Source: Atopobiaceae bacterium (GTDB taxonomy: Bacteria; Actinomycetota; Coriobacteriia; Coriobacteriales; Atopobiaceae). Taken from it: 34,683 nucleotides of DNA. Of the stretch, positions 1,913-24,242 are shown in pieces. The notes beneath the pieces were generated by a model. It did no database searches. It was not told the origin of the DNA and was given only the letters and a program-made list of their open reading frames with translations. Made by a program: the position numbers and the translations under genes. The stretch covers positions 1-34,683 of the forward strand of contig JAFWMI010000122.1 in NCBI GenBank assembly GCA_017513965.1, given 5' to 3'. How positions within the stretch are numbered: the stretch's first letter is position 1; each line of letters starts with the position of its first letter.

Positions 1913-2842
1913 ATGCGATACATCGAGTTTGGCACCACAAAGGCAAAGGTGTCCGAGGTAATTCTTGGCACCATGCGCATAGCCCAAAAGGCCCCCGAGC
2001 AGGTGGCAGACCTCATTGAGGTCGCACTGGATAGCGGCATCAATGCCGTGGACACCGCACCCATCTACGGCCCCTCCGAGGGTCTCATCGGCAAGGCCTT
2101 CGCCTGCCGGCCCGGCCTCAGGGACCGCGTATGGCTTCAAACCAAGCTGGGCATCCGCCCGCACCCGCGCGTAGAGGCCAACTACTTCGACTTCTCGTAT
2201 GAGCACATCATGGACTCCGTGGAGAACAGCCTCAAGGAGCTCAAGACGGACCACATCGACTCCTTGCTGCTGCATCGTCCAGACGCGCTCATGGAGCCGC
2301 AGGAGATCGCGCGCGCCTTCCAAGAGCTGCACGACGCCGGAAAGGTCATCGACTTTGGCGTCTCCAACCAAAACCCGGCCATGATGCGCAGGCTCGCCGC
2401 CTATCTCCCCTTCCCCATCACCGCAAACCAGGTACAGCTGTCCGCGGCATTCACGCCCATGTTCGATGCGTTCTTCAACGCCAACATGCAAAACGACGCC
2501 GGCATCATGCGCGACGGCGGCATCCTTGAGTACGGCGCGGAGCACGACATGGCCATTCAGGCATGGAGCGTACTACAGCACGGCTACTTTGGCGGCGTGT
2601 TCCTTGGCGACTCCGACTATCAGGGTCTCAACGACTCGCTCTCGCGCATTGCCGCCGACCACGGCACCACGCCCACGGCCGTTGCCATCAACTGGGTGCT
2701 GCGCTATCCCGCGAAGATGCAGGCAATCGTAGGTACGACGAGGCCCGAGCGCGTGCGGCAGAGCGCCGCGGCCTGCGATTGGACCATGACCCGCGAGGAG
2801 TGGTACGAGGTCTACCTCTCGGCAGGGAACAAGCTCCCCTAG
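1913..2842 (+). CDS. aldo/keto reductase, YdhF-like
   Basis: This 309-residue protein is an NADPH-dependent aldo/keto reductase, a TIM-barrel oxidoreductase reducing carbonyls to alcohols. The catalytic tetrad is complete: Asp47 and Tyr52 (VDTAPIYG), Lys78 (LQTKLG) and His121 (LLLHRPD). The C-terminal IVGTTRPERVR segment is the cofactor-binding part and resembles the E. coli YdhF branch. The ATG at 1913 is chosen because GGAGAGG lies at 1899-1905; an upstream TTG at 1874 in the same frame has no such site. It stands alone, downstream of the palindrome and followed by its own terminator, so it is probably monocistronic. The physiological substrate cannot be inferred. Confidence 0.9.
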   Translation: MRYIEFGTTKAKVSEVILGTMRIAQKAPEQVADLIEVALDSGINAVDTAPIYGPSEGLIGKAFACRPGLRDRVWLQTKLGIRPHPRVEANYFDFSYEHIMDSVENSLKELKTDHIDSLLLHRPDALMEPQEIARAFQELHDAGKVIDFGVSNQNPAMMRRLAAYLPFPITANQVQLSAAFTPMFDAFFNANMQNDAGIMRDGGILEYGAEHDMAIQAWSVLQHGYFGGVFLGDSDYQGLNDSLSRIAADHGTTPTAVAINWVLRYPAKMQAIVGTTRPERVRQSAAACDWTMTREEWYEVYLSAGNKLP

Positions 2843-2879
2843 CCAACAACACGCCACGCATCGCACCAAATGCTTCCAC

Positions 2880-2918
2880 GAGGGCGTTCGCCTGCGACCA
2901 CCGCACGCGAACGCCCTC
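2880..2918 (+). terminator. rho-independent terminator after aldo/keto reductase
   Basis: A perfect 12-bp stem (2880-2891 with 2907-2918) encloses a 15-base loop, followed by ATTTCGT. The tail is only moderately T-rich. It lies 37 bases after the reductase stop and separates it from the nuclease gene. Confidence 0.7.
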
Positions 2919-3009
2919 ATTTCGTCCGACCAAGGACATCGCCCATAATTACGTCACATGGGACTGCTACGCTCCCAACAGAGTCAACGGCGATGCGAGG
3001 GGTATTGTC

Positions 3010-3972
3010 ATGCGCAACAGTACGTATGCCATGCGCATCCTCATATCTGCGCTCATTGCAGGCTTCGTAATGCTGAGTGGCTGCGAACTCACCTCATGGC
3101 CAGCGATGCATGCGCAAGTGGACAAGGCACCCCCCGCCCCAACATACACGGCGTGGGATGCAAGTGCCTACCCAAACTACTATCGCGTAGACGGCCCGGC
3201 AACATACGTGAGCACACTCTCTGCGGGCGAGACGGCCTACGGTGACCTTGACGCACTGGGAAGGGCCACGTGGGCAGAGACGGTAGTGGACTACGACGCC
3301 ATGGCACGAGGCATCGCGCGCGAGCGGGGCGACATGAGCTCGCTCGAACCCACGGGATGGGGACACAACGCCGAGGTCGAGCTCCAGCTGCCAGATGGCA
3401 GCTCCTACCACGGCTACTTTTGGAATCGGTCTCATTTGCTGGCAAAGTCGCTGGGTGGCTGCGACGAGCTCTGCAACCTCATAACGGGCACGCGCCTGCA
3501 GAACGTGGGCAACAACGACGGTTCTGGCGGCATGGCCTATTGCGAGACGCGGTGCAGGGCATGGCTTGAGGAGCATCCCAAGGGCACCCTCTCGTATCGC
3601 GCCGTTGCGGCATACGAGGGAGACGAGCCTGTGCCCCGCAGCGTGATCGTGGACATGCGGTCATCGGACGGGCTTATCGACGAGCGTGTGGAGGTGTTCA
3701 ACGCAGCCCTGGGCTTTTCCATCGACTACGCCACAGGCGAGTACGCTCAGGAGACCACGGCGCCTGTTCCAGATCCCCAACCCACGCCAATTGACGACGA
3801 GACGCTCGTGGTGGTGTCGGCGTCGGGAAAGGCCTATCATCGCGATGCTGGCTGCAGCGGACTCAGCAACGCAAACGAGGAGGCGCTTCGCACCGTAAGT
3901 CTCGAGGAAGCAGAGCGCATGGGCCGTCATGCGTGCGGCATATGCTATGGTGACACGGAATCAAAGAACTAA
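3010..3972 (+). CDS. lipoprotein DNA/RNA non-specific endonuclease with C-terminal Cys/His module
   Basis: This 320-residue secreted nuclease is EndA/streptodornase-like. A hydrophobic segment ends in the lipobox LSGC with Cys25, so it is probably a membrane-anchored lipoprotein. The nuclease domain (about residues 45-245) carries NRSHLL at 139-144, the equivalent of the DRGH catalytic motif with His142 as general base, and NVGNND at 165-170 as the likely metal-binding Asn region. After a Pro-rich linker (252-260) comes a small domain with His277, Cys282, Cys309 and Cys312, spaced like the Ada-like metal-binding tails of some secreted nucleases. GAGGGG at 2997-3002 sets the start; Met8 is possible. 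The DUF389 gene follows after 23 bases. The likely role is scavenging extracellular nucleic acid or DNA uptake; this is inference from the family. Confidence 0.83.
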   Translation: MRNSTYAMRILISALIAGFVMLSGCELTSWPAMHAQVDKAPPAPTYTAWDASAYPNYYRVDGPATYVSTLSAGETAYGDLDALGRATWAETVVDYDAMARGIARERGDMSSLEPTGWGHNAEVELQLPDGSSYHGYFWNRSHLLAKSLGGCDELCNLITGTRLQNVGNNDGSGGMAYCETRCRAWLEEHPKGTLSYRAVAAYEGDEPVPRSVIVDMRSSDGLIDERVEVFNAALGFSIDYATGEYAQETTAPVPDPQPTPIDDETLVVVSASGKAYHRDAGCSGLSNANEEALRTVSLEEAERMGRHACGICYGDTESKN

Positions 3973-8080: not shown

Positions 8081-8157
8081 GGAAACCTCGTTTCTCGTCG
8101 TTGTACCCTGCATGAGCGTAGCACACTTGACCGCACGCGTTCGCGTTTTACCACGTC

Positions 8158-8185
8158 ACAACAATGGGAAACGCCGCAACCGGAC
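8158..8185 (+). repeat. 28-bp direct repeat, copy A
   Basis: This copy matches 9689-9716 in 27 of 28 positions in the same orientation; the common core is ATGGGAAACGCCGC followed by AACCGGAC. Weaker similarity (about half the bases by hand alignment without gaps) continues for some 36 bases downstream. The two copies flank the diguanylate cyclase gene. Downstream in this copy, CAACGA (8190-8195) can pair with TCGTTG at about 8219-8224. Confidence 0.85.
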
Positions 8186-8316
8186 CAGCAACGAGCATCA
8201 TGCACGTATGAACCATGGGTCGTTGGTACCCGACTATGTCATTTGATTCCCATGAATGGTGCTCGGCGGTCTGGCACACGTTGAGGTCGCGGAGTAGGCA
8301 CACGACCTCCCCGGGC

Positions 8317-9483
8317 CTACCTTCTGCGTCGACGGTCGCGGACAACGCCTTGGTAATACGCTGCCTTGGCACCATACATGACGAGGTCAGCCTCATGTAT
8401 GAGCGCCTCGGCGGAGGCTCCCTCGCAGTCCGCCGCCACTGCGTACCCCACCGAGAGCGTGATGCCCGACACAAGCTTTCCGTGCCATTGCGCGGTTTCT
8501 CGCTTCAAACGTTCCAGCATCTCCTCGGGCTTCCCACGGAGCAGGCATGCGAGCACCACGAACTCGTCCCCGCCGGTTCTGTAACAGCGGCCAGTGGTGC
8601 CAAAGGCTGCCTTCAGGCAATTTGCCGCACCTACGATCAGCTCATCACCCGCCTCGTGTCCCAATGTGTCATTCATCTGCTTAAGGCCGTTGATGTCTAC
8701 GGAGAAGGCGACGAGGTCGCTGGGCAGTGATCCTGCGGCGTTTAACTCGGCGAGCGCCTGCGTATAGGCACGGCGACTGAACATGCCGGTAAGGGCGTCC
8801 GTGTCTATCTGCTCGCGCTGAGTGTTGAGACGCTCGTCCATCTCGAGTGACGAGAATTCTGCATAGCGTATGAACATAAGAGACGCACCCATGGCCATGG
8901 CCACACACACTGCCTTAGGCCTCATGGGCAGCAGCGCTTGCATGGCGATGCCCGCCATGATGAAGAGCATCACGGCGCCAAGCGACAGGCGGTTCTGCCG
9001 GCTAAATGCCTTGCTGTAAAGGAACGACTCAACCGTCACCAACACGACGACTGCGACGCAGGCCGTGAGGTAGGCAGGATACAAGACCCCATGGCCATAG
9101 TGACCCTGATTGTTGACCACGACCATCCATCCGTTGAAGGCGGCGACAATTTGCAACAGGGCATTGAAGGCAAGCATGGAGATGAGCGCCTTGCGCCATC
9201 GGTTATGCAGGTGCATCTGCGCGACCAGCGTACCTCCCGCCATGGGCTTTACGATAAAGTCCACGCACTTGACCGCCGGCAACACCCATGAGGGCAAATC
9301 AGTCCGCCCGTCACACCACCCGCCGAGCCACTCAGTTACCGTGGTAAGCGCGATGAGCGCGTACGTGACATGGAGCAGTCGTTTGTCGCTACTGGACATG
9401 CGGTTGTTCTCCCAGACCATCACCGCGAGTGTCCCAAGCGACATGAGGCACAAGAGCGTAATGGCAGTGTAGTAGGTTAGCAA
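8317..9483 (-). CDS. seven-TM GGDEF diguanylate cyclase
   Basis: This membrane protein of about 388 residues makes cyclic di-GMP from GTP. The N-terminal 210 residues hold about seven hydrophobic segments, a 7-TM sensory-type module; the C-terminal part is a GGDEF domain beginning at DTDALTGMFSRR. The active-site motif is intact (YRTGGDEFVV). The inhibitory RxxD site five residues upstream is absent, so product inhibition by that route is not expected. The TTG at 9483 is chosen because GGGGAGG ends four bases before it; a TTG at 9507 has no ribosome site. There is no EAL or HD-GYP partner in the window. It stands alone between the two 28-bp repeats, which may mark a separately acquired cassette. 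Confidence 0.88.
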   Translation of the reverse strand: MLTYYTAITLLCLMSLGTLAVMVWENNRMSSSDKRLLHVTYALIALTTVTEWLGGWCDGRTDLPSWVLPAVKCVDFIVKPMAGGTLVAQMHLHNRWRKALISMLAFNALLQIVAAFNGWMVVVNNQGHYGHGVLYPAYLTACVAVVVLVTVESFLYSKAFSRQNRLSLGAVMLFIMAGIAMQALLPMRPKAVCVAMAMGASLMFIRYAEFSSLEMDERLNTQREQIDTDALTGMFSRRAYTQALAELNAAGSLPSDLVAFSVDINGLKQMNDTLGHEAGDELIVGAANCLKAAFGTTGRCYRTGGDEFVVLACLLRGKPEEMLERLKRETAQWHGKLVSGITLSVGYAVAADCEGASAEALIHEADLVMYGAKAAYYQGVVRDRRRRR

Positions 9484-9487
9484 GAAA

Positions 9488-9494
9488 CCTCCCC
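9488..9494 (-). promoter_or_regulatory. ribosome binding site that sets the diguanylate cyclase TTG start
   Basis: Read on the minus strand, GGGGAGG ends four bases before the TTG at 9483. The next upstream candidate start (TTG 9507) lacks any such site, so this one decides the N terminus. The same GGAGG-4-TTG arrangement is seen at pyrH. Confidence 0.65.
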
Positions 9495-9682
9495 AGCTCG
9501 GAAGCAACTAGAGCGAACGTTATACCACATGGGTATCCCAAATGCGGTGAGAGCCCAGTTGTTCTCATCCGTTTATAAGCAAAAGCAGATGCTCTGCACA
9601 AAAGGGGGTTCCATTCTGTCACATCGGCCGATCCACGCATCGTTGGCACGTAAACAGGTAAGACGCCTCATTGGGCAGCGCA

Positions 9683-9736
9683 ATATGAACAACCATGGGA
9701 AACGCCGCAACCGGACTTTCGTTGAGAATTGCGCGC
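9683..9736. repeat. 28-bp direct repeat copy B inside an inverted repeat
   Basis: The repeat core at 9689-9716 is the second copy of 8158-8185. Here it lies inside a longer hairpin: GCGCAAT just upstream (about 9679-9685) pairs with ATTGCGC (about 9728-9734), and inner CAAC with GTTG. It sits on the same strand as fbp, about 90 bases before its start, so it could be a leader RNA element. No known riboswitch consensus was recognised. Confidence 0.6.
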
Positions 9737-9804
9737 ATATGGACTATAGGCTTCTAGTATGCTTGCTATAACACACCAATATGGGTCTGTGAAGGGAGCG
9801 ACGC

Positions 9805-11694
9805 ATGGAAGGCAACCTCAAGTACTTGCGACTGCTGTCGCATGAGTTCCCCACGCGCCAAGCCGTGTACACCGAGATTATCAACCTGGAGGCAATCCTC
9901 AACCTCCCGTGCGCCACCGAGCACTTTATGAGCGACATCCACGGTGAGCTCGAGGCGTTTACGCACATTCTCAACAACTGCTCCGGCGTCATTCGCGAGA
10001 TCGTGAACAACCTCTATGCCAATGAGCTGGACGAGCGGGAGCGTGCCGAATTGTGCACGCTCATCTATTACCCCGACGAGAAGCTCGCGCAGCTCAGGAG
10101 CGAAGGCAAGCTCAGCACCCACTGGTACGACGCAACACTCAAGAACCTCTGCAACCTCGCACGGAGGCTCTCCGACAACTACACGCGCAGCTTCGTGCGC
10201 AAGCAGCTCTCCGAGGCGTATGGCTACATTATCGACGAGCTGTTGCACGTGAGCCTTGGCGCTGACTCCGCGCACCACTTCTACCACGAGCGCATTGTGG
10301 ATTCGATCATCGCCATAGGTGCGTCCGATGACTTTATCGAATCCATCACGCGGCTCATCAAGCGCCTCGCCGTTACACGCCTGCACGTGGTGGGAGACAT
10401 ATTCGACCGCGGTCCGCGACCCGACAGAATCCTGGACGAGCTCATCGCGTTCGACAACGTGGACATCCAGTGGGGCAACCACGACGCGGCATGGATGGGC
10501 GCCGCTGCTGGCAGCGAGGTATGCATAGCGCAGGTGGTGCGCACCTGCATCCACTACAACACGCTCGACGTGCTCGAGAGCTCCTATGGCGTCTCGCTTC
10601 GCGAGCTCGCGCTCTTTGCCGACTCCACCTACGAGCACGATCCGCACATTCATAGGCTCGAGAAGGCCATCAACGTCATCATGTTCAAGCTCATGGAGCA
10701 GACCATCCACCGGCACCCCAACTGGGGCATGGAAAGCCGCTGCCTCCTGGGCAACATCGACATCGACAAGGGCACGGTGCGCATAGACGGCAAGGACTGG
10801 GAGCTCATAACGCGCGACTTCCCCACGCTGGATCCCGCGCATCCCGCCGAGCTCTCTGAGGGAGAGCGCCACGTGATGAATCGCCTTGTGGATGCGTTTG
10901 CCGACTCGGACCGCCTGCACGACCACATTCAGTTCCTCTATGACCACGGGTCGCTCTACAAGGTGTGCAACGGACGCCTGCTCTTCCATGGCTGCATCCC
11001 CTTGGACGAGGACGGAAGCTTCTCGCGCGTTACGAGCGGCGGCCGCGTGCGTTCCGGCAAGGAATACCTCGACTACGTGGACAAGATCGCGAGGCAGGCG
11101 TGGACAACTGGCGACCAAAAGGCGCTGGACTGGATGTGGTACATGTGGTGCGGGTATCACTCCCCGCTGGCCGGCAGGACCATGAAGACGTTCGAGCGCG
11201 CGTATGTGGCAAACAAGGACGCCTGGAAGGAGCCTCAGGACCCCTACTTTGACCTCAGCCGCGACGAGAGGGTGGCGGAGCGCGTGCTCGCCGAGTTTGG
11301 CCTCACGGGCGACAACGTCCACATCGTGAACGGCCACACGCCCGTGCACGAGATTGACGGCGACACGCCCGTACGGGCGGGCGGCAAGCTGCTTGTGATT
11401 GACGGCGGTTTCTGCAGCGCGTATCACAAGACGACGGGCATCGCCGGCTACACGCTCATCGAGGACAAGTTCGGTTTGCGGCTCAAGGCGCATCGCCCGT
11501 TCCGAGGCGTCGACGCTGCGCTCGCAAAGAACAACGACATCGCCAGCGCCCACGAGGAGATTATCGAAGACCATCGCGATAAGCCCCTGCGCGTCCTCGA
11601 CACCGACGACGGCCTGAGCATCCTCGAACAGATCGAGGACCTCTCGGAGCTGCTCTCCGCGTATCGCGGGGGCATCTTGCCCGAGCACGGATGA
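9805..11694 (+). CDS. fbp: fructose-1,6-bisphosphatase, class III
   Basis: This 629-residue protein is the large class III fructose-1,6-bisphosphatase of Firmicutes and some Actinobacteria. It hydrolyses fructose 1,6-bisphosphate to fructose 6-phosphate in gluconeogenesis, opposing the phosphofructokinase encoded 4 kb away. Metallophosphoesterase motifs are in order: GDIFDRGPRPD near residue 197, WGNHDAAW near 223, and NGHTPVHE near 509 followed by VIDGGF. The length is close to that of B. subtilis Fbp. GAAGGGAG precedes the ATG by a normal distance. It is monocistronic, with an upstream region containing the direct repeat and a possible TATAAC -10. The hairpin at 11761-11786 follows. Confidence 0.95.
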   Translation: MEGNLKYLRLLSHEFPTRQAVYTEIINLEAILNLPCATEHFMSDIHGELEAFTHILNNCSGVIREIVNNLYANELDERERAELCTLIYYPDEKLAQLRSEGKLSTHWYDATLKNLCNLARRLSDNYTRSFVRKQLSEAYGYIIDELLHVSLGADSAHHFYHERIVDSIIAIGASDDFIESITRLIKRLAVTRLHVVGDIFDRGPRPDRILDELIAFDNVDIQWGNHDAAWMGAAAGSEVCIAQVVRTCIHYNTLDVLESSYGVSLRELALFADSTYEHDPHIHRLEKAINVIMFKLMEQTIHRHPNWGMESRCLLGNIDIDKGTVRIDGKDWELITRDFPTLDPAHPAELSEGERHVMNRLVDAFADSDRLHDHIQFLYDHGSLYKVCNGRLLFHGCIPLDEDGSFSRVTSGGRVRSGKEYLDYVDKIARQAWTTGDQKALDWMWYMWCGYHSPLAGRTMKTFERAYVANKDAWKEPQDPYFDLSRDERVAERVLAEFGLTGDNVHIVNGHTPVHEIDGDTPVRAGGKLLVIDGGFCSAYHKTTGIAGYTLIEDKFGLRLKAHRPFRGVDAALAKNNDIASAHEEIIEDHRDKPLRVLDTDDGLSILEQIEDLSELLSAYRGGILPEHG

Positions 11695-11760
11695 GCCGGC
11701 AGCAGCGAGCTACGGCGACAAGGCCTCGCCAGTGCGATAACGAACTGATGCAAACGACAC

Positions 11761-11786
11761 AGCCCTCGACCGTTATGCCGAGGGCT
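11761..11786. terminator. hairpin between fbp and the STT3 gene
   Basis: An 8-bp perfect stem (11761-11768 with 11779-11786) with a 10-base loop lies between convergent genes. T-runs are poor on both sides, so it may serve as a weak bidirectional terminator. Confidence 0.5.
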
Positions 11787-11858
11787 GGCCTCATACATTA
11801 GCCACCAGCTAACGTTGGCACAGACGGATTGCAGCGATAGACACTTGCACATATTGCC

Positions 11859-14045
11859 CTATGCGATGCGCCATACGCGCACATGCGAGACGCCATCGTC
11901 CTCGTCGAACACGCGAGCAAAGGCACCGTCCACCTTGCCATCGACGAGCAGTCGCCACATGGTCTCACCAGAGCGCCTTTGAAGCAGCTCTTTTCCCTCG
12001 TCACTGTCCTGTAGGGGCGTGCCGTCCCAAGCCTTGTTAAACGCCGTCGCCCTCGGCGGTGTGGCTTCGCCCGAGAAGTCCCAGTCCGCGTAGTACTCAT
12101 ACCAACCCAAACGTAGCAGCATCTCGTTCGAGAGCACCAGATACACCTCTTGGGATGCACGGGGGTGCACGAGTAACTCGACCTCACTTGCCTCATCCCG
12201 AGTGAGCCCGCACCTCTCCACGAGCAGCGAGCGTGTTTCGTCTTCCCCAAGCAAGAGCGCGTCGCATACGGCAGAAAACACCATGGATGCGTCCACGTGC
12301 CCCATAAGTCTGTCCACGGCACGATTGCCCGATGCCGAGAGCATGCGAAGCATGGCTACTGAAAACTGTGGGTCCTGTGCGACCAGAGCCTTGGCAAGAA
12401 GCATCGCGCGCGTGCCATTGAGCGTCCCGCCATCCCAGAGACAAGGATGCCCCGACTCGAACTCGTAGAAATACCCCATGTCCCACCACGTGACTACGAC
12501 TGCGTTCGCATCCAGCGCGTGATTACGTACCCACTGCATGGCATGGGCATGGGCATCGGATGCCGAAGGACGCGTGCGGGCGCTAATCGCATATGAGCCA
12601 AGCAGCGAGGGCGCTATTGCCATAGTGCAAACCACAGTGCAGAGGGCTCCCGCGAGCACGCGGCAAACGTGATCTTTCGGGTGTAGGTGCGCACGAATCA
12701 GTTGAGCGGCCCAGCCCACTCCTACGCCTGCAAGCACCCCAACAGGCACAGCCAGATGCTCGATGAACCGGATACCGCGCAGACTCAGGTAGCATCCTCC
12801 AACCAACTGAACACCAATCACACAAAGATAGATGCGACATGCATTCGGGTCTAGCGGTGTATTCGTTGCCTTTCGGTCGCGGGCACACGAGACAAGCGCC
12901 AACAAGCCCACGGCTGCGAACAGACAAACCACGACACCGCCCAAACCCTCCAAGATAGTTGCGTCACTCCTGAGCATATCGCCCACAAGCCACCGCAAGC
13001 CCACTTCGGGCGACAGGGCTGGCGCGCGCAGCTCCGAGACCGACGTGAACATGCTCGGCATGGCACTACTTGCGCCAAGGTCGACAGTGCCTGCTACGGC
13101 ACGTACGGCTTGGCTCACAAAGTGGGGGCCATACACGACAAAGCCTGCGACAACCGCTACAATCACACACAGCACCACCAGCGCAAGGTTAACACCAGAC
13201 GTTGTGACCGCGTCGATTGCACCAAGGCCTTTTGTACGCCGATTCCATGCTACGAGCAGTACATACAGCAGCGCTCCCACAAGCAGCATTGCCACGTAAA
13301 GGGCTACATTTTGTGGCGTCCAACAGAGACCATACGTCCAAGCGACAAACAGGAACCCTCCGAATAGCAGTGCCTTTTTGCGTAAGGTTTGTGCACGCAA
13401 AGCTTCGGTGAGCATCAGCACCAAAAGCACGTCCAAGAGCACGATAAGCGCATCCGTATCGTATCTTCCAAACACGCTACGAAGCACAAAGCCAGGCGCA
13501 CATGACACCAACACGCCCACCACTAAGCCGCATACTCCCCCGTTCACGCGCATGCCAAGCACGAAGCCGACGAGGGCAACCAAGGAAGACGCCAAGACGG
13601 GAATACAGAACTCCATCCGCTCAAGGCTCACACCGGCGTACGCATGCAAGACACCCCATGCGGCTTCCGTTAGCCACACGATTCCAGGTGGATATGCGGC
13701 ACTTCTACCTTCGGGCCAAAAGCTCTTGGTGTCCCATGAGGTTTGTCCATCCACAACGGTATCGCCAAACACGCCGCTTGTCATATGGTTTTGTACCAGG
13801 CGCACATGATAGTAGGAGTCCTGATCGGTGAAGTACGGCGTACCCGTGTCGGTGGTATACGCTGTGCGCTCCTTGTTGCTCGCGCCATAGGGTTCTGCAG
13901 AGGGAAGGCGTACGACCACCGATAAAAGTGCCGCCACACAAGCAGCAACACACAGACAAAAAACGAGCACGGCAGGGTGCTTTATCTTGCCTGCCATGCC
14001 CGTCGATAAGACCTGTTGCCCAGCGTCTCTCTTGGTTTCGTCCAC
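11859..14045 (-). CDS. STT3/PglB-type oligosaccharyltransferase family membrane protein
   Basis: This 728-residue polytopic protein belongs to the STT3/AglB/PglB (GT66) family. Such enzymes transfer a lipid-linked glycan to Asn in N-X-S/T sequons on the outer face of the membrane. The key motifs are all present: DQD at residues 74-76 in TDQDSYYH (first DxD region), YDTD at 195-198 (second metal site, as in PglB), SVSE at 335-338 as a likely SVSE/TIxE loop, and WWDMG at 520-524, the sequon-binding WWDxG signature. About a dozen hydrophobic segments lie before residue 490, then a C-terminal extracellular domain. The length resembles Campylobacter PglB. The GTG at 14045 is six bases after the upstream secreted-protein stop; ATG 13997 is an alternative. 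No glycan-assembly genes are in the window, so donor and targets are unknown. Confidence 0.88.
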   Translation of the reverse strand: MDETKRDAGQQVLSTGMAGKIKHPAVLVFCLCVAACVAALLSVVVRLPSAEPYGASNKERTAYTTDTGTPYFTDQDSYYHVRLVQNHMTSGVFGDTVVDGQTSWDTKSFWPEGRSAAYPPGIVWLTEAAWGVLHAYAGVSLERMEFCIPVLASSLVALVGFVLGMRVNGGVCGLVVGVLVSCAPGFVLRSVFGRYDTDALIVLLDVLLVLMLTEALRAQTLRKKALLFGGFLFVAWTYGLCWTPQNVALYVAMLLVGALLYVLLVAWNRRTKGLGAIDAVTTSGVNLALVVLCVIVAVVAGFVVYGPHFVSQAVRAVAGTVDLGASSAMPSMFTSVSELRAPALSPEVGLRWLVGDMLRSDATILEGLGGVVVCLFAAVGLLALVSCARDRKATNTPLDPNACRIYLCVIGVQLVGGCYLSLRGIRFIEHLAVPVGVLAGVGVGWAAQLIRAHLHPKDHVCRVLAGALCTVVCTMAIAPSLLGSYAISARTRPSASDAHAHAMQWVRNHALDANAVVVTWWDMGYFYEFESGHPCLWDGGTLNGTRAMLLAKALVAQDPQFSVAMLRMLSASGNRAVDRLMGHVDASMVFSAVCDALLLGEDETRSLLVERCGLTRDEASEVELLVHPRASQEVYLVLSNEMLLRLGWYEYYADWDFSGEATPPRATAFNKAWDGTPLQDSDEGKELLQRRSGETMWRLLVDGKVDGAFARVFDEDDGVSHVRVWRIA

Positions 14046-14051
14046 AGCTCG

Positions 14052-14810
14052 CTACTTCACCACAAGCTTGATGGTCCTGGTAGTAATTGTCTTTTTATAG
14101 TTGCTTGTTGCACCAGCGGTTATCTTGACCCTGAGTTTATACGTGCCCTTTTTGAGCCCGCGCGAAACAGACACCTTACCCTGACTGTTCACAGAAACAT
14201 ATTTAGCCGCTTTCTTCGACACAGTTACGCGTTTGAAGCTCTTCGAGGCGTTATCCTTTGTTATTGCAGAAATCCTGAACGTTTGTTTCCTCTTCTTGAG
14301 CTTGGAGGCATTCAACGTCTTGGATCTGGTCACCTTCGTAATGGTGTTGGGTGCCTTTGCTATGGTGAACCGGACGGTAATCTGGCCGCTGTATAAACCC
14401 TTGCCCGTAACGGTAACGATGCCTGAGCCAACGTTCTTGTTTACGCCATACGAAACGATATAATCGCGATCCTTTACGAGTCGCGTCGCGCCTGTAATGG
14501 TTGTCACGACCGGCAGCGGCTTTATCTGAGCGCCCGTATAAACCTGTTTGGCAATTGGCGACACCTTTGCGACAGAGGCAAGTTGCTTGGCTTGCGGTTT
14601 GTCGACGACCGACGTGCCATTGGAAGAAACCGAAAGCATGGGATTGGATTCTTGGGCCGATTGCAAGTAGACCGCACCCTCCGCAGAGCGCCGTACGTCT
14701 CCCTCGAGCATCGACAGCTCCTCATCGGCCGTCTGTGCCAGCGCCGTCATAGGCAGAACGCCAACGCTCAAAGCCGCAGCCATGAGTAGACACATCAACG
14801 TCTTCTTCAT
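14052..14810 (-). CDS. secreted Ig-like repeat protein cotranscribed with STT3
   Basis: This 252-residue protein has a signal peptide (Lys-Lys start, hydrophobic core, likely cleavage after ALA at residue 25). Residues 85-150 form a domain like the bacterial Ig-like surface repeats: YTG-A-IKP, a KDRDYIVSYGVNKNVG stretch, then GKGLYSG and a RFTI strand. Residues 160-252 form a second Lys-rich beta-type domain. It has no LPxTG or other anchor. Three N-X-S/T sequons occur (N64, N167, N187), which is not clearly above chance in a Ser/Thr-rich protein. GGGAGG precedes its ATG. The STT3 gene begins six bases after its stop, so it is the first gene of that operon and a candidate glycosylation substrate or partner; that is inference. 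Confidence 0.75.
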   Translation of the reverse strand: MKKTLMCLLMAAALSVGVLPMTALAQTADEELSMLEGDVRRSAEGAVYLQSAQESNPMLSVSSNGTSVVDKPQAKQLASVAKVSPIAKQVYTGAQIKPLPVVTTITGATRLVKDRDYIVSYGVNKNVGSGIVTVTGKGLYSGQITVRFTIAKAPNTITKVTRSKTLNASKLKKRKQTFRISAITKDNASKSFKRVTVSKKAAKYVSVNSQGKVSVSRGLKKGTYKLRVKITAGATSNYKKTITTRTIKLVVK

Positions 14811-15136
14811 TATTCCTCCCGATGTGAACTATACTGCGCGTTTTCTGAATAATAGTTTAAACACTGTGTGATACATCAAGAAAGAACAGGATTGAAACAA
14901 ACGACAGGATGTGAGAAGTTCTGCTCTGCACCACCTAGACGGACTTCGTTGAGGCACAGCCGGCAGTGGCCTGCGGCACCGAACCGATTGAAGCAAGACC
15001 GAACAACGCGTTGGCTCAGGCCACCGTAAGACACCTAACCTGCTTGATCCGCTGTATCCTCATGTGCAATGTCGGCCTACGAGTCCACACCTACGTGCTA
15101 CCCTACCGGTATGGGCAAACGGCAAGGGGTAGACAG
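14811..15136. other. 326-base divergent intergenic region
   Basis: This region separates the minus-strand secreted-protein operon from the plus-strand Cys-rich protein gene. It contains the GGGAGG ribosome site for the former and AAGGGG (15124-15129) for the latter. A minus-strand TATAGT about 25 bases from the ATG could be a -10, without a good -35. I see no gene, repeat or terminator in the remainder. Confidence 0.5.
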
Positions 15137-15778
15137 ATGAACAACGCACAGCAGAAGAAGATTGAGTTTCGGGGAACTGTGCGCGCTGTGCAGGTACGAT
15201 CCGACGTATGGAGGTACCGCCTTGACAATCGCACCCACTCCCACAAAGGCTATAACGTGTTCCTGGAGGGTGTCTCGGCAGGTGTCGAAGGGCGCTTCTC
15301 GGTCGCCGTATCCGAGAAGCAGCAACAGAAGCTTCACCTCCGTCTCGGCGATGAGCTCATGGGTACCGCATGGACGAAGCTCTATCCCAAGCGCGAGTAC
15401 GCCGATTACTACCGAGCGGGCGCGCTCAAGGTGGTCGCGCGAGGACCGGAGCCAGTCGAAGGCCCCCGACCGCCGTGGACCGGCGAGGTCGAGCCGCTCG
15501 CGACGTATGCGTATCGCCAGTGCAGGATGCTCGACACGCGCCGCTACAAGGGCAAGTGTTTCACGTGCAAGTGGGCAGCGATGGCAAACGCCATCATCGA
15601 ATATGACTTTGGGGTTTCTCAGCGACTTCGCTTCGAGAGCTTTTGCTACGGGCCCAAGTCGTGCCCGCTCTACACGATGGGCCGCCCGAGGGCAGTGCCA
15701 TACAAGGGGATGGGTAGCGTGTACGACGAGGGATGGCTTGATTCCGACATAACCGCGCACCGCGACTGGGACGAGTAG
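15137..15778 (+). CDS. conserved-looking Cys-rich protein, unknown function
   Basis: This 213-residue protein is predicted to be soluble and cytosolic. The first 90 residues look like a beta-rich domain beginning EFRGTVRAVQVR. The C-terminal half contains CRMLDTRRYKGKCFTCKW, then FCYGPKSCPLY: Cys pairs spaced CxxC and CxxxxxC, with a further Cys nearby, which could bind zinc or an iron-sulfur cluster. No catalytic motif was recognised. The ATG at 15137 with AAGGGG upstream is chosen; the frame is open further upstream but without a ribosome site, and the residues there look random. It stands alone between intergenic regions. I do not recognise the family with confidence and assign no function. 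Confidence 0.7.
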   Translation: MNNAQQKKIEFRGTVRAVQVRSDVWRYRLDNRTHSHKGYNVFLEGVSAGVEGRFSVAVSEKQQQKLHLRLGDELMGTAWTKLYPKREYADYYRAGALKVVARGPEPVEGPRPPWTGEVEPLATYAYRQCRMLDTRRYKGKCFTCKWAAMANAIIEYDFGVSQRLRFESFCYGPKSCPLYTMGRPRAVPYKGMGSVYDEGWLDSDITAHRDWDE

Positions 15779-15853
15779 CGCGACGCACGTTACGACGATA
15801 CGCCCAACCACCCAATTCTGCCGATGTCGCCCGCATCGTCTCAGCTAACGGTT

Positions 15854-15879
15854 GACTGGTTAGGTTCCTGCCACCAGTC
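15854..15879. repeat. short hairpin GACTGGT/ACCAGTC
   Basis: A 7-bp perfect stem with a 12-base loop lies just before the 30-bp repeat array. It has no T-run. It may be a terminator stem for the Cys-rich protein gene or an edge of a REP-like element; the sequence does not decide. Confidence 0.4.
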
Positions 15880-15893
15880 CTACGGGACAATTC

Positions 15894-15983
15894 ACCGAGA
15901 TTTTCATCGCTGAAGGTCCATTCGCTGGGTTTTTCATCGCCGAGGGTCCGTCCGCCAAGTTTTGCATCACCGAGGGTTTTTCG
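15894..15983. repeat. tandem array of three 30-bp units
   Basis: Three head-to-tail units (15894-15923, 15924-15953, 15954-15983) keep exact 30-base spacing: CATCGC at 15905 and 15935 and CATCAC at 15965, each followed by a CGAGGGT-like stretch. There are no spacers, so it is not a CRISPR. Read on the minus strand the units encode a 10-residue repeat (PSAMKNPANG type), but no supported start exists. Confidence 0.85.
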
Positions 15984-16020
15984 GACTCGGCAATGCAGAT
16001 TCCAGCGAAAAAACCCTCGG
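15970..16020. repeat. inverted copy closing the 30-bp array
   Basis: CCGAGGGTTTTTCG at 15970-15983 is matched by CGAAAAAACCCTCGG at 16006-16020, with one extra base, so the last unit can fold back on an inverted copy across a 22-base loop. The inverted copy is followed by CGAGCG and resembles the array unit. The stretch 15779-16102 otherwise holds no gene. Confidence 0.75.
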
Positions 16021-16097
16021 CGAGCGCAAAGCCAGCGGAACTGCCAACACCATCAGTTACACGTGGCCAAAGGGGGGTATGACATATCTCATTAAGC

Positions 16098-16126
16098 AAA
16101 AACAGGCCAGCACATATGCTGACCTG
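16098..16126 (-). terminator. terminator of the CAU tRNA
   Basis: On the minus strand a 10-bp stem with one mismatch (16117-16126 with 16103-16112) and a 4-base loop is followed by five T (16098-16102). It lies ten bases after the tRNA CCA end. Confidence 0.85.
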
Positions 16127-16136
16127 CTCGTTTGTC

Positions 16137-22510: not shown

Positions 22511-23460
22511 AGTATGCCTCCAATCAGGAGAATGAAATAGATAACCACGCTGCCAAAGAGCAGCGAGTCGGTACGATCAAGCAAACCACCGTGGCCGGGC
22601 AGAATGTTTCCCGAGTCCTTTACGCCCACGCCACGCTTAATGCGCGACTCAAACAGGTCACCGATAACGGCCACAACGGCCTCCACCAAGGCACACGCCA
22701 ACGCGAGCTGGATGGAAATGCCACCTATGTGCAGCGCTGCCGCAATGCCCCAAGCAAGCAGCGACCCAACGATGCCACCATAGAAGCCCTCCCAACTCTT
22801 GTTGGGCGAGATGCGCGGCGCCATTTTGTGCGATCCCAAGCTGGAACCCACGATGTACGCAAGCGAGTCCTCGGCCCATATGGCCGCTATCACCACAAGT
22901 GCAAGGGCGGCACCTGATAACCCAGGGTCATACGCGCGTATGAGGGCAATGCACGAGAGCGGCAGCGAGGTATAGACCGGTCCCAAAACCGAAACGGCGA
23001 CGTCTGCAATGTTCGCCCGTGGGTTGAGGACGTACCATGTGGCGACCACCAACAATAGCGGCAGCGTCACCGCAATGAGCATGCCTGGTCCCCAAAGGGT
23101 GGCAACGATTGGGTAGGCTATCGCGGCCGTTAGGCCCGCAATCTCATACGGACGCCTGCCGGCCATGCGACAAATCCTGAAGAATTCCGAACAACAGAGC
23201 CAGGCCATGGCCGCCATGAGAGCGGCCGTGGGCAAAACGCCCCAGTACAGGCAGGCGATGATGGCAATCACGTATACGGCGCCCGACATGGTACGCGTGA
23301 GCAGCTTCTCCGTCCAACCGCGCACGCGCTGTCCCTTGAGCGTCCCAGCTACGCGCTGCTCCTCCTTGGAGTCGCGCCTGCTTTCGAGCTTCTCTATTCC
23401 ACGGTCAATGCCAACGACCGCTGACTTGCCTTCTTGCTCTGGGGCTGGCTTCTTACTCAC
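22507..23460 (-). CDS. cdsA: phosphatidate cytidylyltransferase
   Basis: This integral membrane enzyme of about 317 residues makes CDP-diacylglycerol, the precursor of anionic phospholipids, from phosphatidate and CTP. The C-terminal signature is clear: SPNKSWEGFYGG, then a DLFESRIKRGVGVKDSG block and LPGHGGLLDRTDS. About eight hydrophobic segments precede and accompany it. An N-terminal tail of about 55 charged residues is longer than usual. The GTG at 23460 is selected because its GTGA overlaps the uppS stop; the open frame extends to 23547 inside uppS. Confidence 0.95.
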   Translation of the reverse strand: MSKKPAPEQEGKSAVVGIDRGIEKLESRRDSKEEQRVAGTLKGQRVRGWTEKLLTRTMSGAVYVIAIIACLYWGVLPTAALMAAMAWLCCSEFFRICRMAGRRPYEIAGLTAAIAYPIVATLWGPGMLIAVTLPLLLVVATWYVLNPRANIADVAVSVLGPVYTSLPLSCIALIRAYDPGLSGAALALVVIAAIWAEDSLAYIVGSSLGSHKMAPRISPNKSWEGFYGGIVGSLLAWGIAAALHIGGISIQLALACALVEAVVAVIGDLFESRIKRGVGVKDSGNILPGHGGLLDRTDSLLFGSVVIYFILLIGGIL

Positions 23461-24242
23461 GCAGACGTTACACCCCCAAAGCGGCGGTCTCGATGCTGGT
23501 ACGACCGGATGGCACGCAGGTAGTCCCAGCGTGAAAAATCTGGCCACAGCACATCGGTAACGACGATCTCGGTATAGGCAAGCTGCCAGAGCAGGTAGTT
23601 GGAGAGACGTAGCTCCCCCGACGTACGTACCAGCAGTTCCGGATCGGGAAGCCCGGCCGTGTAGAGCCGGTCGGCGATCGCCTGCTCGTCTATCTGGTCC
23701 TTGTCCAATATTCCTGCGGCAACGTCGCTTGCAATCATTCGAGCGGCTCGTGCCATTTCTGCACGCGAACCATAGTTAACCGCCAGGGCGAACGTCATGC
23801 CGTCGTAGCCTGCCGTCTCGTCCAAACCGCGCTGGAACACGTTCGCGGTCTTCTTGGGCAGAGCATCAATGTCTCCCAAGAACCGCAGGCGCACGTTTTC
23901 CTGATGGAAGAGCGGCAGTTCCTTCACCAGTGTCGTGGCGAACAGATGCATGAGGAGATTGACCTCCTCCTGAGGCCTCCGCCAATTCTCTGTGGAGAAG
24001 GCATAGGCAGAGAGCACGTCCACACCGAGTCTCACGCTGGTGGTAACCGCTTCGCGCAACGAATCAACCCCGGCCGCGTGGCCCTTGGAGCGCGCCAAAC
24101 CGCGTGCCTGTGCCCAGCGGCCATTGCCGTCCATAATAAACGACACATGACGCGGGATGCGAGCCAAGTCAACGTCTTCCAAGCTCACATCAGCGGGGGG
24201 TTCCTCAAAGTAAGCGCGAAGCTTAGCCTCGTCGCGCTCCAC
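23457..24242 (-). CDS. uppS: undecaprenyl diphosphate synthase
   Basis: This 261-residue cis-prenyltransferase condenses isopentenyl diphosphate onto farnesyl diphosphate to make the C55 carrier for cell-wall glycans. The diphosphate-binding site is MDGNGRWAQ, followed by RxxGH (RSKGHAAG), and the substrate Arg motifs RTSGELRLSN and W-Q are near the end. The start is GTG immediately after the frr stop, with GGAG within the frr end. The neighbouring cdsA, dxr and ispG match the usual lipid and isoprenoid operon. Confidence 0.96.
   Translation of the reverse strand: MERDEAKLRAYFEEPPADVSLEDVDLARIPRHVSFIMDGNGRWAQARGLARSKGHAAGVDSLREAVTTSVRLGVDVLSAYAFSTENWRRPQEEVNLLMHLFATTLVKELPLFHQENVRLRFLGDIDALPKKTANVFQRGLDETAGYDGMTFALAVNYGSRAEMARAARMIASDVAAGILDKDQIDEQAIADRLYTAGLPDPELLVRTSGELRLSNYLLWQLAYTEIVVTDVLWPDFSRWDYLRAIRSYQHRDRRFGGVTSA

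Follow-up and report, generated by a model that had tools for sequence, protein, structure and literature searches.

Most documented cases of bacterial N-linked protein glycosylation come from epsilon- and deltaproteobacteria, and we found nothing specific in the literature on Gram-positive oligosaccharyltransferases (OSTs). The question raised by the present locus is whether an actinobacterium carries an STT3/PglB-type OST together with a dedicated secreted acceptor, as the initial annotation had proposed from two adjacent genes. The analysed stretch (the window, 34,683 nucleotides) is one whole contig (G000:C45) of the Atopobiaceae genome G000, which was assembled as 3.5 Mb in 323 contigs. 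Both annotated open reading frames exist on one strand, and according to the ORF coordinates STT3 follows the partner gene after a 6-base gap. A strong Shine-Dalgarno site precedes the partner gene. No clear one was found upstream of the STT3 GTG codon, so that this start is either uncertain (possibly later) or translationally coupled. The features of the locus are listed in Table 1.

Table 1. Features of the STT3 locus, in positions of the window
Feature	Position	Strand	Remarks
Variable island, M18 peptidase gene to tRNA-Met/tRNA-Ala	8127..16136	.	Pair, FBPase, GGDEF gene and ORF14966 inside
Terminator-like hairpin past STT3	11760..11787	-	11 pairs, 8 GC; consensus scan only
STT3/PglB/AglB-type oligosaccharyltransferase gene	11859..14045	-	728 aa, GTG start; Pfam, PDB-profile and fold matches
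WWDMG motif, residues 520-524	12474..12488	-	WWDYG-type sequon-binding motif
SVSE motif, residues 335-338	13032..13043	-	E338 invariant in 14 homologues
YDTD motif, residues 195-198	13452..13463	-	Second acidic pair; D196, D198 invariant
DQD motif, residues 74-76	13818..13826	-	D76 aligns with D of first catalytic loop
Secreted partner gene	14052..14810	-	252 aa, ATG start; signal peptide, short linker, generic tail domain
Sequon N187-A-S, partner tail	14244..14252	-	No counterpart in G007 orthologue
Sequon N167-A-S, partner tail	14304..14312	-	No counterpart in G007 orthologue
Sequon N64-G-T, partner linker	14613..14621	-	No counterpart in G007 orthologue
Shine-Dalgarno site GGGAGGA, partner gene	14814..14820	-	Read directly

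Judged by its sequence, the window gene is a real and complete STT3-type OST gene. The full-length protein matched Pfam STT3 (PF02516, E 4e-38, 132 bits vs a cut-off of 24.5) as well as STT3-PglB_core (PF21436, E 8e-8, 33 bits vs a cut-off of 23), in agreement with the annotated identity. The four annotated motifs were found at the residues assigned to them, in alignment columns that are conserved across 14 homologues; the conserved residues are D76, D196, D198, E338, W520, W521, D522 and G524. The loop at D76 reads D-S-Y-Y-H-V-R, vs D-P-Y-F-N-Y-R in STT3A. No conserved Arg equivalent to R331 of PglB was seen in the loop after E338, a region that is loosely aligned.

When the homologue profile was compared with solved structures, STT3A (E 7e-26), PglB (2e-22 to 8e-22) and AglB (2e-13) were matched, and all 17 matches were OSTs. 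An AlphaFold2 model was generated from the window STT3 and six related proteins (pLDDT 69.5, pTM 0.70) and covers the multi-span GT-C membrane domain and the C-terminal core domain, as expected of GT66. PglB ranked first in Foldseek (6gxc, E 1.5e-13), and VIA-align over residues 18-728 gave Z scores of 28 for yeast STT3, 27 for AglB and 25.5 for PglB, which are matches of the overall fold and not of active-site geometry, the loops at about 95-116 and 319-359 being poorly modelled. Other GT-C folds, such as protein O-mannosyltransferase (PMT, 20.5) and AftD, scored lower (Z 19.5-20.5). The window STT3 stayed below the cut-offs of two narrower family models, the PglB equivalog (NCBIfam ProtGlycPglB, 51.1 bits vs 1300) and the archaeosortase-associated archaeal STT3 (TIGR04154, 55.7 bits vs 450).

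The gene is rare around the window genome, as had been expected. STT3 was found in three of 100 genomes in the sample of relatives (G000 counted), in 2 of 140 genomes of the family, only in G000 among 296 sampled genomes of the class, and as two strong matches (G000 and G1219) besides weak ones among 396 genomes of the phylum. In a sample of 397 genomes around a Lachnospiraceae carrier, eight were above the STT3 cut-off, while the strict model hit one of 391 genomes in the wider class. The window STT3, a paralogue on another contig of the same genome (C205) and the STT3 of G007, a member of the same genus, formed one clade (100/97), which joined six Lachnospiraceae/Oscillospiraceae/Clostridia proteins (100/98) in an unrooted tree. 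Because the tree is unrooted, we can only infer the direction of transfer. The STT3 of G1219 (L202, 7506-9749) has a much stronger Pfam match (249 bits), sits on a long branch and belongs to a different bacterial STT3 lineage.

In G001, G006 and G007 the interval that corresponds to the variable island is without STT3, FBPase and ORF14966. The GC contents of the pair are 51% and 58%, vs 59-63% in the neighbouring genes measured. The locus gave no match in searches for plasmid, phage or viral carriage, and none to defence-system models. The sporadic distribution, the grouping with Bacillota proteins and the location in a variable island indicate that STT3 and its partner are probably acquired DNA. 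As a separate observation, gene content in this interval varies among the genus members, which makes it a hotspot for acquired genes, and the FBPase there is of the Firmicute type.

The partner has a signal-peptide-like N-terminus, consistent with its annotation as secreted. Its description as Ig-like was not confirmed, since the single-sequence model was too poor (pLDDT 50) and gave only a beta-rich tail; the protein has no Pfam match. The tail domain spans residues about 77-252 (window 14055-14580) and had 48 matches in the window genome and 93 in G010, a genome without STT3. It is possibly a wall-binding module. As it is generic in the genus, it was rejected as a marker of STT3 substrates. 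The tail-domain pattern (Y-T-G ... D-Y-x-V-S-Y ... V-T-G-K-G) likewise has no Pfam match; numerous surface proteins of the genus share it, and it is seen again at 1964-2461 of the C205 locus (L003). All tail-domain surface proteins sampled in the window genome contain sequons. Across the genus, the observed/expected sequon ratios of tail-domain surface proteins show no excess in STT3 carriers (1.17 and 1.22) vs non-carriers (1.00 and 1.34), and genome-wide sequon enrichment in carriers was likewise considered and not seen in the samples.

The three annotated sequons of the partner, N64, N167 and N187, are present. The caution that three were not clearly above chance was borne out, as shuffling gave 1.9 expected (p=0.29, z 0.9).

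An orthologous pair exists in G007, the one further genus member in which STT3 was found, at a different place in the genome. Its STT3 gene is split over two contigs and lies 24 bases downstream of the secreted partner. The two partners match in signal peptide and tail (51% identity over residues 61-252, E 8e-44, vs 2e-25 for the next-best tail-domain protein). An additional linker, some 90 residues long, is present in the G007 partner, whose residues 27-160 contain 11 sequons, of which 10 are N-X-T (p=4e-4, shuffles). The window partner is without this sequon-dense linker and keeps one sequon in its own. Thus the pair is conserved in G007, but the sequons are not, since none of the three in the window partner has a counterpart there. 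Taking N-X-T enrichment as the sign of an adjacent dedicated acceptor, the G007 orthologue shows it and the window partner does not.

Sequon-dense secreted proteins were also found beside STT3 genes of Bacillota. Those in L009, L010 and L043 contain 26, 39, 41 and 35 sequons and reached z 5.7-8.3 vs shuffles. In the genome samples the dense neighbours scored z 8.0 and 7.5 in G434, 7.6 in G380 and 5.7 in G379, while no protein in the other sampled sequence of the same three genomes (about 90-140 kb each) was above z 2.8. In five dense proteins, that of G007 included, Thr occurred 116 times at +2 of Asn vs 21-42 times at other offsets (-6 to +6), and N-P-S/T was absent (zero). No such +2 Thr peak was seen in the tail-domain proteins of the genus, in STT3 carriers and non-carriers alike. 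Acidic residues (D/E) at -2 in sequons of the STT3 neighbours were mostly at or under background, which gives no acidic rule. Sequon enrichment was weak or absent in the neighbours in L007, L042 and L012, and in L008, L011, L046 and L047 no secreted protein is evident next to STT3. With sequon-dense secreted proteins beside STT3 in some Bacillota, an OST with its own acceptor appears to be a recurrent arrangement.

GT2, DUF2304 and flippase genes stand beside STT3 in some Bacillota clusters. DUF2304 was tried as an STT3 partner gene and rejected, being present in every genus member tested regardless of STT3. In G434 (L043, 4910-17001), GT2, DUF2304, STT3 and flippase genes form a compact cluster with a sequon-dense surface protein on either side (41 and 35 sequons), which makes it the clearest candidate for Gram-positive N-glycosylation in this analysis.

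The second STT3 of the window genome (6245-8479 in G000:C205, L003 1952-11475) is a paralogue with 47-50% identity. This locus contains a secreted protein of 1,200 aa with the same tail domain at its end and 12 sequons (z about 1.8), and, beside STT3, a divergent ABC-2 permease/ATPase pair of a type used in glycan export. A small signal-peptidase-like gene, read from the sequence and without a Pfam match, also lies near STT3. Since a second STT3 accompanies another surface protein, 'dedicated' would not mean exclusive. The ABC-2 pair makes a glycan supply possible; DUF2304, which occurs in STT3-linked glycan clusters, is found throughout the genus members tested.

PglB of Campylobacter (GT66; 5ogl, 6gxc) is, like the window STT3, a single-subunit bacterial OST. 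The two share WWDxG, acidic catalytic loops and the fold, although only about 15% of residues are identical when the structures are aligned. In Campylobacter-type pgl systems the OST is linked to glycosyltransferase and flippase genes, whereas none is found among the window genes scanned; the remark that no glycan-synthesis genes are visible holds for these genes, UppS (23460-24242) being housekeeping. CjPglB needs an acidic residue at -2 of the sequon (PMC4894442), a rule absent from the sequons beside homologous STT3 genes. AglB of Archaea and eukaryotic STT3 (3waj, 6s7o, 8agb) gave the top VIA-align fold matches, with STT3A as the top profile match, and their minimal N-X-S/T sequon logic fits the proteins neighbouring homologous STT3 genes. 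Relaxed PglBs of Desulfovibrio are bacterial OSTs that take N-X-T without an acidic -2 residue (PMC4894442). They belong to another phylum and are experimentally tested. The closest homologues outside the genus are held by Lachnospiraceae/Oscillospiraceae loci (35-39% identity to the window STT3 for L007-L012; 23-24% for the more distant L042 and L043). Several of them have a secreted protein directly beside STT3, as in the window. The best of these neighbours are sequon-dense, with as many as 41 sequons, and GT2, DUF2304 and flippase genes stand in several of the loci, whereas the window locus has neither.

The reading that we favour, with somewhat better than even confidence, is that the window STT3 is an active N-type OST acquired horizontally in a unit with a secreted acceptor, of which this copy is now reduced. 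STT3 would be a single-subunit, membrane-embedded N-oligosaccharyltransferase that takes a lipid-linked glycan on the external side of the membrane and attaches it to the Asn of N-X-T/S sequons in secreted proteins. Its gene would have arrived horizontally, either from Lachnospiraceae/Oscillospiraceae or shared with them, in a two-gene unit of STT3 and an acceptor built of signal peptide, sequon-bearing linker and tail domain. Loss of the linker in the window copy, rather than its gain in G007, would explain the present form. Since the window acceptor is without most of the dense linker, STT3 now probably acts on the residual linker site and on other surface proteins, while the paralogous STT3 would serve the second surface-protein locus and the donor glycan would probably be borrowed from a cell-wall polysaccharide pathway.

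The dedicated pair in its strict form, in which the purpose of STT3 is to glycosylate its 252-aa neighbour, chiefly at N64 and at both tail sequons, is unlikely. The identity of the OST and its rarity stand, and the 6-base spacing, the pair in G007 and the sequon-dense neighbours in other genomes agree with it, but the sequons of the window are at chance level, none is conserved, the dense linker is absent and the genome has a second STT3. A dedicated acceptor is supported by the relatives and not by the window partner, which looks like a reduced one. We give just as little credence to a general system in which many surface proteins are substrates of both paralogues, the partner being just one among them or a passenger. 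The many tail-domain proteins, with sequons in all those sampled, and the ABC-2 exporter pair next to the STT3 paralogue fit this idea, whereas sequons are no higher in carriers than in non-carriers and the strong outliers in the Bacillota samples are STT3 neighbours only.

It is quite improbable that the protein, as a GT-C transferase with the fold of STT3, has given up sequon transfer and now uses another acceptor or is an inactive remnant. Such a role would suit a partner without a dense linker, and PMT and AftD folds align too, but all catalytic and sequon-binding motifs are intact and conserved, and STT3, AglB and PglB outrank the other GT-C families in fold match. An assembly or binning artefact that placed a foreign contig in this MAG is more improbable still. 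The MAG contamination is 7.09% and most genus members are without STT3, but G007 has the orthologous pair, and the contig carries the only ProS copy of the genome, 86-88% identical to those of the nearest genus members, so the contig is native. Gene order around ProS also agrees with G001, and contamination as the source of the contig was rejected on the single ProS and this synteny.

Beyond the preferred reading of a reduced acquired unit, we put forward, tentatively and at somewhat less than even confidence, that in some Gram-positive bacteria STT3 moves in a cassette together with a sequon-dense, secreted acceptor of its own (one OST, one acceptor), that it uses a minimal N-X-T sequon free of the acidic -2 rule, that the cassette was passed between Bacillota and this genus, and that the window has a reduced copy. 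Thr at exactly +2 beside STT3 makes Gram-positive N-glycosylation directly testable and points to the acceptors, and enzymes accepting N-X-T without an acidic -2 residue would be useful for glycoprotein engineering. Elsewhere in the window, positions 2563-3972 encode a protein of 469 aa that contains a domain of the DNA/RNA non-specific endonuclease family (PF01223, E 7e-10).
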